Below, in pieces: positions 669 through 27,109 of a stretch of DNA of 35,028 nucleotides. The stretch is from Frankiales bacterium (GTDB lineage: Bacteria; Actinomycetota; Actinomycetes; Mycobacteriales; SCTD01). The stretch lies in assembly GCA_025965475.1 (NCBI GenBank), contig JAOPWV010000009.1, positions 1 to 35,028 of the forward strand, given 5' to 3'. The first letter of the stretch is position 1. The number at the start of each line of letters is the position of its first letter. A program made the translations under genes and the position numbers. The notes under the pieces are model-generated. The model was not told the origin of the DNA. It saw nothing but the letters and a program-made list of their open reading frames with translations, and did not search any database.

Positions 669-873
669 TGACGCCAGCCGCGGTTCGCCGAATCCCGCCC
701 GCGCGGCAGCGTCGAAGCGACCGGCGCGTGCCGGCCAGCACCGCAACCACGGGCGGGAGCGGGGGCCCCACGTACGACGGGGTCTCGCACGAGGCCTCTT
801 GGGGTGAAGCCTGCGCACGCGCAGGCCGGGCGACAACCGCGCCCGAACCCGACAGCTCACCTCGCAGGCGTGC
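669..873 (+). promoter_or_regulatory. ydaO-type c-di-AMP riboswitch
   Basis: The leader of the NlpC/P60 gene carries conserved blocks of the actinobacterial ydaO/yuaA riboswitch: GCCGAATCCCGCC (about 687-699), TTGGGGTGAAGCC (799-811) and GCCCGAACCCGACAGCTCAC (841-860), then the closing GGCGTGC. A P1 helix can be drawn between ACGCC (671-675) and GGCGT (867-871). GGAGAG (874-879) follows P1 directly, so it is a plausible switching target. Family knowledge: this class binds c-di-AMP, usually acts as an off switch, and in Actinobacteria commonly precedes cell wall hydrolase genes (Rpf, NlpC/P60). The exact ends are my estimate; the identification rests on motif recognition, not a covariance search. 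Confidence 0.75.
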
Positions 874-894
874 GGAGAGACGAAGTCCGACACC

Positions 895-1374
895 GTGTTC
901 CGCCATGCCCCCGCACGTCTCGGCATCCGCCGCATCGGCCGCATCGCGGCCGCCGTCAGCCTCGCCGCCGCCGTATCTGGTGGCACGATCGCCGCCGCAG
1001 CCCCGGCGCAGGCGGCCACCCCGCTCGGTCAGAAGGTCGTGGCCGAGGCCCAGAGCCACAAGGGCAAGCCGTACGTGTACGGCGCAGTCGGTCCCAGTTC
1101 GTTCGACTGCTCCGGCTTCACCAAGTACGTGTTCAGCCGGTTCGGCAAGAACCTGCCGCGTACGGCGGCCGCGCAGTACACCGCCACCCGGCACATCGGG
1201 CAGGGCGCCAAGCAGGCCGGCGACCTGATCTTCATGCGCAGCTCGTCCGGGAGCATCACCCACGTCGGCATCTTCAACGGTGGCAACAGCTGGTGGGTGG
1301 CCCCCAAGGCCGGGGACCACGTCAAGCTGCAGGCGCTCTACAGCCCGAACTACTCGGTGGGCCGCGTCAGCTGA
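895..1374 (+). CDS. Secreted NlpC/P60-family cell wall peptidase
   Basis: This 159-aa exported protein should cleave peptide stems of peptidoglycan in the outer wall. Residues 1-41 form a signal peptide: a basic start, a hydrophobic core around 18-36, and an AQA-A cleavage site near 40/41. The rest is a compact NlpC/P60 domain with no other wall-binding module. The nucleophile is Cys72 in the DCSGF motif and the catalytic His is 123 in THVGIF. The usual third polar residue, about 12 residues later, falls in WWVAP and is not an obvious His. The start is a GTG; the nearest purine-rich site, GGAGAG at 874-879, is about 15 nt away, longer than usual, and abuts the riboswitch. The c-di-AMP riboswitch upstream points to control by cell wall or osmotic status. 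Confidence 0.93.
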   Translation: MFRHAPARLGIRRIGRIAAAVSLAAAVSGGTIAAAAPAQAATPLGQKVVAEAQSHKGKPYVYGAVGPSSFDCSGFTKYVFSRFGKNLPRTAAAQYTATRHIGQGAKQAGDLIFMRSSSGSITHVGIFNGGNSWWVAPKAGDHVKLQALYSPNYSVGRVS

Positions 1375-1451: not shown

Positions 1452-2672
1452 CTACTTGATGACGTTCATCAGGCTGAAGATCGGCATGTAGAGGGCGACG
1501 ATCATCGAGCCGATGACGGCACCGAGGAACGCGATCATCAGCGGCTCGATCAGGGCGGTGAGAGCCTCGGTGGTCGCCTCGACCTCCTGGTCGTAGAACT
1601 CCGAGATCTTGTGCAGCATGGTGTCGAGGGCACCGGTGTCCTCGCCGACCGACATCATCTGCACGACCATCGGCGGGAACACCCAGTGGTTCTCCAGCGG
1701 CTTGGCCAGCGCCTCGCCCTGGCGGACGCTGTTCTGCACGTCGCGGATGGCCCGCTCGAGGACGACGTTGCCGGTGGTGTCCGCGACGATGTCCAGGCTC
1801 TGCAGGATCGGCACGCCGCTCTGCATCATGGTGCCGAGGTTGCGGGCGAACCGGCTCAGGGCGACCTTCTGCGCCAGCGGCCCGAACACGGGCGCCTTCA
1901 GCTTGAGCGGGTCGAGGGTGTTGCGTACGCGCGGCGTGTTCTTGATCTTCGGCCAGGTGAACACCAGGGCGATGAGCGCCACCAGGCCGAGCGGCGCCGC
2001 CCATTTCGCGACGCCGGACAGGAAGACCAGGAACCGCGTGGGCGCCGGCAGCTGGGCGTCGAACCCGGCAAAGAGCCCGGCGAACACCGGCACGATGAAG
2101 ATGAGCATGCCGATGACCGCGACGATCGCCATCACGAAGACGACGGCCGGGTAGGTCATGGCCGCCTTGATCTTGCCGCGCAGCTTCACCTCGGCCTCGT
2201 AGTTCGCCGCGATCTGCATGAGGACGAGGTCGAGGAAGCCGCCCACCTCGCCGGCCTTGGTCATGTTGACCATCAGCGGCGGGAAGAAGGCGGGCTGCCG
2301 GGCCAGCGCCCCGGACAGGGACGAACCGGTCTCGACGTCGGTCCGCACCTCGCTGAGCGCCTGCTGCAGCTTCTTGTTGTCGGTCTGCTCGACGAGGATC
2401 GTCAGCGCGCGCAGCAGCGACAGGCCGGAGTTGATCATCGTGGCGAACTGCCGCGAGAAGACGGCCAGCTCCTTGAGCTTGACCTTCTTGCCGATGCTCG
2501 GCAGCTTGACCTCGCGCTGCAGGCCGGTGTTGGCCGCCGTGATGCTCAGCGGCGAGTAGCCCATCGCCTTCAGCTTGGTCGCGACCTGGGTCTCGGTGGC
2601 TGCCTGCAGGCTCCCGGACCGCAGCTTGCCGTCCCGGTCGCGGACCTTGTAGGCGAAGGTGGCCGTACTCAT
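1452..2672 (-). CDS. pilC: Type IV pilus inner-membrane platform protein PilC
   Basis: This 406-aa GspF/PilC-family protein forms the membrane platform that the PilB and PilT motors act on to insert or remove pilin subunits. There are two T2SSF repeats (about 65-190 and 270-395), each with the typical 'ARQLATMIxSGLPLLxAL' pattern, seen here as FSRQFATMINSGLSLLRAL and FARNLGTMMQSGVPILQSL. Hydrophobic helices lie near 170-195, 220-240 and 372-395. Length is normal for the family. It is the last gene of the block, 13 bp after pilT, so probably co-transcribed. The ATG at 2672 follows GAGAGG by about 8-10 nt. Confidence 0.95.
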   Translation of the reverse strand: MSTATFAYKVRDRDGKLRSGSLQAATETQVATKLKAMGYSPLSITAANTGLQREVKLPSIGKKVKLKELAVFSRQFATMINSGLSLLRALTILVEQTDNKKLQQALSEVRTDVETGSSLSGALARQPAFFPPLMVNMTKAGEVGGFLDLVLMQIAANYEAEVKLRGKIKAAMTYPAVVFVMAIVAVIGMLIFIVPVFAGLFAGFDAQLPAPTRFLVFLSGVAKWAAPLGLVALIALVFTWPKIKNTPRVRNTLDPLKLKAPVFGPLAQKVALSRFARNLGTMMQSGVPILQSLDIVADTTGNVVLERAIRDVQNSVRQGEALAKPLENHWVFPPMVVQMMSVGEDTGALDTMLHKISEFYDQEVEATTEALTALIEPLMIAFLGAVIGSMIVALYMPIFSLMNVIK

Positions 2673-25393: not shown

Positions 25394-27109
25394 TCAGACC
25401 TCCGGGTTGGACGCGACGGGCCGCGACGAGCTCGCCGCGCGGGACGGGGGCCGGGTGACGGGTGCGCCACCGTCCGGGCCGTAGAACCCGGTCCACTTGT
25501 GGTTGCTGAACCATGCGAAGCGCGACAGCCACGACACGAGGGGCCGGGTGAAGAGGAAGACCACCACCACGTCGAGCAGCGTCGACAGGCCGAGCGTGAA
25601 GGCGAAGCCGCGGACACCGCCGACGGACACGAAGTACAGGATGATCGCGGCGAGCAGCGAGACAGTGTCCGCCGACAGGATGGTCCGCCGGGCGCGCACC
25701 CAGGCACGGTCCACCGAACTGCGCGGCGTACGACCTTCCTTGATCTCGTCCTTCAGGCGTTCGAAGAACACGACGAACGAGTCCGCGGTGATACCCACCG
25801 CGACGATCAGACCGGCGATGCCGGCCAAGGAGAGCGCGAAGCCGATCTGCTTGCCGAGGATCGTGACGAAGGCGTAGACGAGCAGGCCGGACAGCAGGAG
25901 GCTGGCGATGGTCACGACGCCGAGCGCGCGGTAGTACAGCAGCGAGTAGATGACGACCGCGATCAGGCCGATGCCACCCGCCAGCAGGCCGGCGTGCAGC
26001 TGGTCCTTGCCGAGCGTGGGCGAGATGATCTCCACCTGGCCGGGCTGGAAGGACAGCGGCAGCGCGCCGTACTTGAGGGTGTTGGCGAGGTCCTGCGCGC
26101 TCTTCTGGTCGAAGCTGCCGGTGATCTGCGCGTCGCCGTCGATCCGGCTCTGGATGGTCGGCGCCGAGATGGTGACGCCGTCCAGGACGATCGCGACCTG
26201 CTTGCCGAGGGTCGCCGCGGTGAGGTCGCTGAACTTGCGCTGACCCTCGCCGGTGAACGAGACGACGATCTCCCACTGGCCGGTGGTCGGGTTCGTCGTG
26301 GCGGTGGCGCCCTTGACGTCGGTCCCGACGACCTTGGCCACGTCGAGGTGGTACTTCACCTGCCCGTCCTGCGAGCAGGACACGATCTGCTGGTTCGGGG
26401 CGTCGTTCGAGCCGCCGGTGCGGGCCGTCGGCTTGCTGCAGTCCAGCGCAGCGAAGGCCTGCGGCGTGTACGGGTCACCGCTGCGCACGCCGGTCTGCCC
26501 GGACGCGGACGGCGCCGGCGACGCGGACGGGCTGGCAGAGGGGCTGGGCGTGCCGGCCGCGAGCAGGCCCTTGGACAGCGCGCGGCTGTTCGCGGTCGCC
26601 GACGGCGTGGCCGCCGGGGTCGCGGGAGTCACGACCGCGGCCGACGGCGAGGCACTGGGGTTCGCCGACGGCGTGCCGCTCGCCTTCGGGGTCGCCGTCG
26701 CGGTCGGCTGCGCCGCCTGCGGGCTGCCGGCCGCCGACTGGAGCACCTCGCGGAAGCGCAGCTGCGCCGTGGTGGCCAGCGACTTGATCGAGTCGCGGCT
26801 GCCGCCCGGCACCGACACGACGATGTTGTTGCCCTGCGTCACGACCTCGGCCTCGGCGACACCCAGACCGTTGACGCGGCGGTTGATGATGTCGACGGCC
26901 GTCTGGAGCTGGTCGCCCTTGGGCTGGGTCTTGGGCTGCAGGATGACGCTCGCGCCGCCCTGCAGGTCCAGGCCGAGCTTCGGGGTCAGCGGCTTCCCGC
27001 CAGGACCGGCCAGCAGCACGATGCTGTACAGCACCACGAGCAGGAGGGCCAGCGCCCCGAAGTAGCGACCTACGTGCAGCGTGCCTCGCGAGGGGCCGGG
27101 TCGTGCCAC
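25394..27109 (-). CDS. secD: Protein translocase subunit SecD with Ala/Ser/Pro insertion
   Basis: This is a 571-aa partner of SecF. A first helix (about 17-34) is followed by the P1 region beginning KLGLDLQGGASVIL, the SecD signature; the C-terminal part has helices with the motif VAVGITADSFVVFFERLKDE. Residues about 124-208 are an Ala/Ser/Pro/Thr-rich stretch in the extracellular P1 region (ATATPKASGTPSANPSASPS and similar), not part of the usual fold. I chose the GTG at 27109 because AGGAG lies about 9 nt upstream; a frame to 27151 adds 14 residues. It follows yajC by 96 bp. Confidence 0.94.
   Translation of the reverse strand: MARPGPSRGTLHVGRYFGALALLLVVLYSIVLLAGPGGKPLTPKLGLDLQGGASVILQPKTQPKGDQLQTAVDIINRRVNGLGVAEAEVVTQGNNIVVSVPGGSRDSIKSLATTAQLRFREVLQSAAGSPQAAQPTATATPKASGTPSANPSASPSAAVVTPATPAATPSATANSRALSKGLLAAGTPSPSASPSASPAPSASGQTGVRSGDPYTPQAFAALDCSKPTARTGGSNDAPNQQIVSCSQDGQVKYHLDVAKVVGTDVKGATATTNPTTGQWEIVVSFTGEGQRKFSDLTAATLGKQVAIVLDGVTISAPTIQSRIDGDAQITGSFDQKSAQDLANTLKYGALPLSFQPGQVEIISPTLGKDQLHAGLLAGGIGLIAVVIYSLLYYRALGVVTIASLLLSGLLVYAFVTILGKQIGFALSLAGIAGLIVAVGITADSFVVFFERLKDEIKEGRTPRSSVDRAWVRARRTILSADTVSLLAAIILYFVSVGGVRGFAFTLGLSTLLDVVVVFLFTRPLVSWLSRFAWFSNHKWTGFYGPDGGAPVTRPPSRAASSSRPVASNPEV

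Follow-up and report, generated by a model that had tools for sequence, protein, structure and literature searches.

The window, by which we mean the whole 35,028-nucleotide stretch of DNA that was analysed, contains a structured leader at about 670-894 followed by a gene for a secreted NlpC/P60 peptidase, and the elements of both are collected in Table 1. The next gene downstream is pilC (1452-2672, minus strand), which lies 77 nt beyond the peptidase gene and is convergent with it. Upstream of the leader, a plus-strand open reading frame at 279-494 (71 aa) has a strong Shine-Dalgarno (SD) sequence, GAGGAGG, and hydrophobic stretches. A scan of the whole window returned a single Rfam match, to RF00379 (c-di-AMP, ydaO/yuaA; E 2.7e-10), which spans the full-length model (1-134) and, at 55.1 bits, exceeds the gathering score of 38 bits. 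An initial annotation had assigned the leader to the ydaO class from its conserved blocks and a P1 pairing, and the significant covariance-model match agrees with that assignment. The blocks GCGGGG, GGGGTGAA, CCCGAACCCG and CAGCTNACC are all present in the aptamer, as are a 4-bp pseudoknot between a loop and the 3' tail, the purine-rich stretch GGAGAG that had been noted after P1 and, once the 5' end is corrected as described below, the P1 and P2 helices of the family. The same genome has five RF00379 matches, four of them above the cut-off, and one diadenylate cyclase (DAC) domain, PF02457, the domain that makes the ligand. We conclude that the leader is probably a c-di-AMP riboswitch of the actinobacterial type.

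Table 1. Positions in the window of the leader elements and of the gene that follows them.
Feature	Position	Strand	Remarks
P0 5' strand	670..682 (670-674 and 677-682)	+	Pairs with 702-714; the helix covaries across loci
P1 5' strand, CGCC	686..689	+	Partner of 867-870; near 739-742 in the Rfam alignment
P2 5' strand	693..701	+	9 bp with 750-758
P0 3' strand	702..714	+	Abuts the P2 5' strand without a linker, a predicted H-type pseudoknot
Small hairpin, CCGGC-GCGT-GCCGG	721..734	+	Within the P2 insertion; read from the sequence
Putative c-di-AMP riboswitch aptamer, RF00379 match	729..886	+	55.1 bits; gathering score 38
P2 3' strand	750..758	+	
Conserved GCGGGG	759..764	+	Pairs with CCTCGC at 860-865 (square brackets in Rfam)
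CCGC in hairpin loop	837..840	+	3' pseudoknot partner of GCGG at 872-875
P1 3' strand, GGCG	867..870	+	
GCGG, 3' pseudoknot strand	872..875	+	Overlaps the first two Shine-Dalgarno bases
GGAGAG, candidate Shine-Dalgarno	874..879	+	Read from the sequence; relatives have one at a similar place
Secreted single-domain NlpC/P60 peptidase, 159 aa, GTG start	895..1374	+	Pfam match and structural relatives; conserved Cys72 and His123, with Val135 as the third residue

The product of the downstream gene matches a single Pfam domain, PF00877 (residues 57-152, 78.1 bits against a cut-off of 23), and its closest solved structures by sequence are NlpC/P60 cell-wall hydrolases, the best being 4hpe (E 3.6e-22). 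Together with a signal peptide read by eye, this bears out the earlier description of a secreted, single-domain enzyme. The columns of Cys72 and His123 are conserved in all 53 rows with DCSG. The third catalytic residue of NlpC/P60 (C40) peptidases is commonly His; here that column holds Val135 (codon 1297-1299), and among the 53 riboswitch-controlled NlpC proteins it is His in 15, with D, S, V and A also common. The GTG at 895 is supported as the start codon because the products of two relatives, L049 and L059, likewise begin with MF and start almost equally far from the aptamer.

For comparison, we assembled 80 aptamers from 31 genomes, the window's own and 30 relatives, taking one downstream protein per match (set A), and a class set of 90 loci that shares no genome with set A, 30 of them chosen by best scores and 60 picked before any test for the additional helix described below. 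In set A the downstream protein matched NLPC_P60 in 53 of 80 cases and Transglycosylas (Rpf) in 22, with one GH25 protein, and the few remaining open reading frames include truncated or doubtful calls; the start codon mostly falls no more than about 15 nt from where the model ends. In the window's genome, half of the eight NlpC/P60 matches stand behind RF00379 matches. The association of the aptamer with cell-wall hydrolase genes is thus conserved. The position beside pilC is another matter. The initial annotation had raised a functional connection with the pil block, but this neighbourhood is not conserved: none of the other 79 aptamers has a pilC-like match up to about 1.5 kb away, and no NlpC match turned up at that distance around 19 other pilC loci from relatives, some of them truncated by contig ends. 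The adjacency is best taken as chance and appears peculiar to the window.

Several arrangements in these genomes stood out in their own right. Two consecutive NlpC/P60 genes occur elsewhere in the window's genome (G000:C130:27689-27985 and 26813-27088; L002, L199), the second behind a riboswitch and the first with a leader that ends at the contig edge. L049 and L058 (G014:C59) form divergent, back-to-back riboswitch-NlpC modules about 1.5 kb apart, and L082 (G001:C120:885-943) is a partial aptamer, at 30.8 bits below the cut-off, in front of a rarer target, a GH25 lysozyme-like gene. GGTAAC/GTTACC boxes, which we take to be MtrA-like, occur 10 times in the 200 nt upstream of P1 in 78 set-A loci and once in the control region; the window has none.

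The Rfam alignment has the P1 and P2 5' strands at about 739-746 and relies on non-standard pairs there. A motif farther upstream, CGCCGAATC at 686-694, instead allows P1 to form with four of four pairs (CGCC with GGCG) and P2 with nine of nine (TCCCGCCCG at 693-701), leaving a 48-nt insertion inside P2. Judged by this pairing, the 5' end of the RF00379 match is misplaced in the window aptamer and the true P1 and P2 5' strands lie upstream, so that the start at 669 proposed initially fits the RNA better than Rfam's 729. The insertion in relatives L059, L058 and L078 holds inverted repeats different from the small hairpin of the window. Across the 31 genomes, 66 of the 80 aptamers carry the 5' motif with a P2, and in 49 of these 66 P2 spans at least 36 nt (long P2).

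The corrected 5' end also brings into view a further helix, which we call P0. In the window it consists of GCCGCG/CGCGGC (677-682/702-707), in which six of six pairs are GC, extended by a 5-bp helix, GACGC/GCGTC (670-674/710-714). Elsewhere the pairing is kept with different letters, as in GGTCGG/CCGACC, CAGCCGG/CCGGCTG, GACCAG/CTGGTC, CCCGCAC/GTGCGGG and CTCGCACCCG/CGGGTGCGAG. When P0 was searched for freely, its mean length was 6.04 bp in the 49 long-P2 loci of set A, compared with 4.39 bp after partners were exchanged (maximum 4.96 in 1000), and 5.89 bp in the 47 long-P2 loci of the class set, compared with 4.09 (maximum 4.55 in 500); these tests leave aside 14 of the 80 set-A and 17 of the 90 class loci, where the 5' motif with P2 was not found, and retain some long-P2 class-set rows that look misassigned (e.g. 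L122, L124 and L133). Among class-set loci with a short P2, 26 in all, no excess was seen (3.27 versus 3.49 bp exchanged). At fixed geometry, 55 of 96 long-P2 loci have a P0 of at least 5 bp, against a mean of 5.6 loci and a maximum of 14 in 1000 with exchanged partners and 0-5 loci in slid controls; 44 distinct P0 sequences occur in this test, and 41 of the 96 loci lack a 5-bp P0 at this geometry.

We then asked how P0 varies in an ungapped alignment of 31 long-P2 loci with a 9-bp P2, selected irrespective of P0. All six pairs vary on both sides, 67.2% of P0 cells pair (49.7% when shuffled), and the covariation score is 0.466 versus 0.228, a value reached in 0 of 500 shuffles. Sliding the strands by -1 scores just as well (66.7%, 0.491), which reflects the 3-nt linker of some loci, the window among them, and other slides drop to 0.12-0.24; these exchange, shuffle and slide controls fall short of a full phylogenetic test. 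In most P0-positive loci P2 passes into P0 without a gap, the linker between P0 and P1 is mostly 2-3 nt and P2 is mostly 7-9 bp. This is the layout of an H-type pseudoknot, in which P0 would stack on P2 and the crossing loop would hold the 5' strand of P1. In RF00379, the consensus line leaves the first ten model positions unpaired, so P0 is absent from that model. On sequence evidence, the window RNA is thus a variant form of the aptamer: it has an additional 5' pseudoknot that covaries and that the public model does not contain.

P0 of at least 4 bp is present in all 15 long-P2 aptamers of set A that precede short NlpC genes and in 14 of the 18 that precede Rpf genes, and many actinobacterial aptamers with a short P2 have none. 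A longer P1 in place of P0 was considered for the short-P2 aptamers and set aside, as no clear difference was seen (mean extension 1.28 versus 1.14 bp). Outside the class, 3 of 18 loci (L211, L212 and L215) pair the 5' flank with the loop of a short P2, over 4, 5 and 7 bp, and most of the others show no such pairing. These three come from another part of the phylum, and their pairings (GGTGCCA/TGGCACC, GAGCC/GGCTC and GCCA/TGGC) may represent a simpler form of P0. Just 5' of P0, the window also carries a perfect plus-strand hairpin, TCTGCC-GGAAC-GGCAGA (652-668), lacking a T-run, where relatives carry different inverted repeats. A search of titles and abstract openings found no description of P0, which may yet stand in Block 2010, Nelson 2013, St-Onge 2015 or three 2014 crystal-structure papers that lay outside its reach. 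The crystallised ydaO aptamer (RNA-Puzzles 12, PDB 4QLM/4QLN) has, in its printed construct, hardly any 5' flank and lacks a P2 insertion, unlike the window, and therefore cannot show P0 (PMC5393176).

At the other end of the aptamer, the crystallised RNA resembles the window: its loop CUCCUUCG and tail CGAAGGAG are complementary in the printed sequence (PMC5393176). The loop before GCCCGAA is complementary to the tail that follows P1, and the two change together, being CCGC/GCGG in the window and its nearest relatives and, for instance, CCTTCC/GGAAGG or CTCTC/GAGAG in other loci. In fixed regions, the mean longest pairing between loop and tail was 5.20 bp in set A (80 loci) and 5.16 bp in the class set (90 loci), compared with 4.32 and 4.24 bp when partners were exchanged between loci (maxima 4.66 and 4.50 in 500) and about 2.7-3.3 bp in slid controls. 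Of the 72 set-A loci that could be used, 49 have a pairing of 4 bp or more that takes in 2 nt or more of the best SD match; the other 8 of the 80 have a start codon outside 8-45 nt from the tail. The pseudoknot of the window is only 4 bp long and covers just G874-G875 of GGAGAG, and in L078 the pseudoknot shares no bases with the best SD match. When the window was folded freely or with constraints, no switch at the SD was evident from folding alone. A hairpin spotted by eye beside P1, CTCGCA/TGCGGAG, which would hide the SD, was rejected; its bases are already taken by P1 and the conserved GCGGGG/CCTCGC helix.

The distance from GGAGAG to the GTG is 15 nt (880-894), as had been stated. Its description as unusual holds insofar as it lies at the long end, but it is not isolated: by the best-SD-match definition, which gives the window a gap of 17 nt, 5 of the 72 usable loci have gaps of at least 16 nt in a range of 3 to 21, and the close relatives L049, L058 and L059 have SD-start gaps of 12-14. 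This long gap, and a score of 55.1 bits where many relatives score higher (up to 93.3), could be read as signs that the aptamer is degenerate and non-functional in this genome. We consider that very improbable: at least part of the shortfall in score seems due to the insertion in P2 and to the wrongly placed 5' end, P1, P2, P0 and the conserved blocks are intact, and four of the five aptamers of the genome exceed the cut-off.

How might such a leader act? Neither an intrinsic terminator nor a sigma-70-like promoter was found in positions 480-1480 of the window. Because there is no terminator in this region and the SD-bearing tail takes part in the loop/tail pairing, a translational OFF switch is the best reading, and we regard it as probable that the c-di-AMP riboswitch turns off translation of the NlpC/P60 gene, with P0 buttressing P1. 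At high c-di-AMP, the aptamer would close P1 and the 3' pseudoknot, which would take SD bases and pack the folded RNA against the ribosome site, so that little endopeptidase would be made; at low c-di-AMP, the tail would be freer, the enzyme would be produced and peptidoglycan would be loosened. The 4-bp pseudoknot of the window, with its weak overlap of the SD, counts against this reading. The same aptamer could instead act by ending transcription prematurely, through pausing or a factor, with the short distance to the start codon reflecting compact leaders only, and a Streptomyces review does give c-di-AMP-dependent premature termination for rpfA (PMC10117811). That is unlikely here, given that 480-1480 has no terminator-like site, that the SD sits in a covarying pseudoknot and that transcript levels in Corynebacterium glutamicum did not track c-di-AMP (PMC9960051).

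The part played by P0 can also be read in two ways. Under the preferred reading, the 5' pseudoknot would form first during transcription, and P0 would most likely steady the short P1 (4 bp) from the opposite side. Alternatively, P0 could be a competitor; in that case the P0/P2 pseudoknot would stop P1 from closing and leave the SD accessible until c-di-AMP restored P1, and the two pseudoknots would be mutually exclusive. This alternative concerns the role of P0 only. The P1 5' strand does lie in loop 1 of the P0/P2 pseudoknot, the geometry noted above is rather constant and P0 is transcribed well ahead of the P1 3' strand. Simple geometry, considered without a 3D model, nevertheless seems to let P1 form within loop 1, and many short-P2 actinobacterial aptamers do without P0. 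We give competition a minor though appreciable chance and favour P0 as a support, because the linkers seem long enough for P0 and P1 together.

A translational OFF switch has a close parallel in C. glutamicum nlpC (cg2402), where an RF00379 aptamer likewise precedes an NlpC/P60 peptidase gene, there is no canonical terminator and the SD can pair with an aptamer segment; the authors describe a repressing c-di-AMP riboswitch that acts most likely at translation and propose a CTCC/GGAG pseudoknot (PMC9960051). The C. glutamicum gene is described there as heading a seven-gene operon, whereas in the window the next gene is convergent. The Streptomyces literature reports six ydaO leaders each in S. 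lividans (PMC8079986) and S. venezuelae (PMC11481543), and rpfA and other ydaO-controlled cell-wall hydrolases there resemble the window's genome in having several leaders before secreted wall hydrolases; the level of control differs by source, being termination in one (PMC10117811) and translation initiation in another (PMC8079986). The pairing of this riboswitch with hydrolases is thus already published in Corynebacterium and Streptomyces, and the regulator and target of the window are an ordinary new instance of known biology.

The wider significance lies in the architecture. The pattern of an SD held in a pseudoknot, repeated over many loci, offers a direct, testable answer to how riboswitches of this kind work in the absence of a terminator. 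In many actinobacterial members the public model sets the 5' end wrongly, and it leaves out a helix that covaries; a construct trimmed to the Rfam borders (729-886) would be missing P0 as well as the true P1 and P2 5' strands, and might yield false-negative binding tests. Tentatively, and as a possibility that we hold more loosely than the OFF switch itself, we suggest that a widespread actinobacterial subtype clamps its 4-bp P1 between two pseudoknots, one on the 3' side, already known, which holds the ribosome site, and one on the 5' side, so far undescribed, formed by P0 on a 7-9 bp P2, with the 5' knot setting the response to the ligand or acting as the alternative state of the switch.
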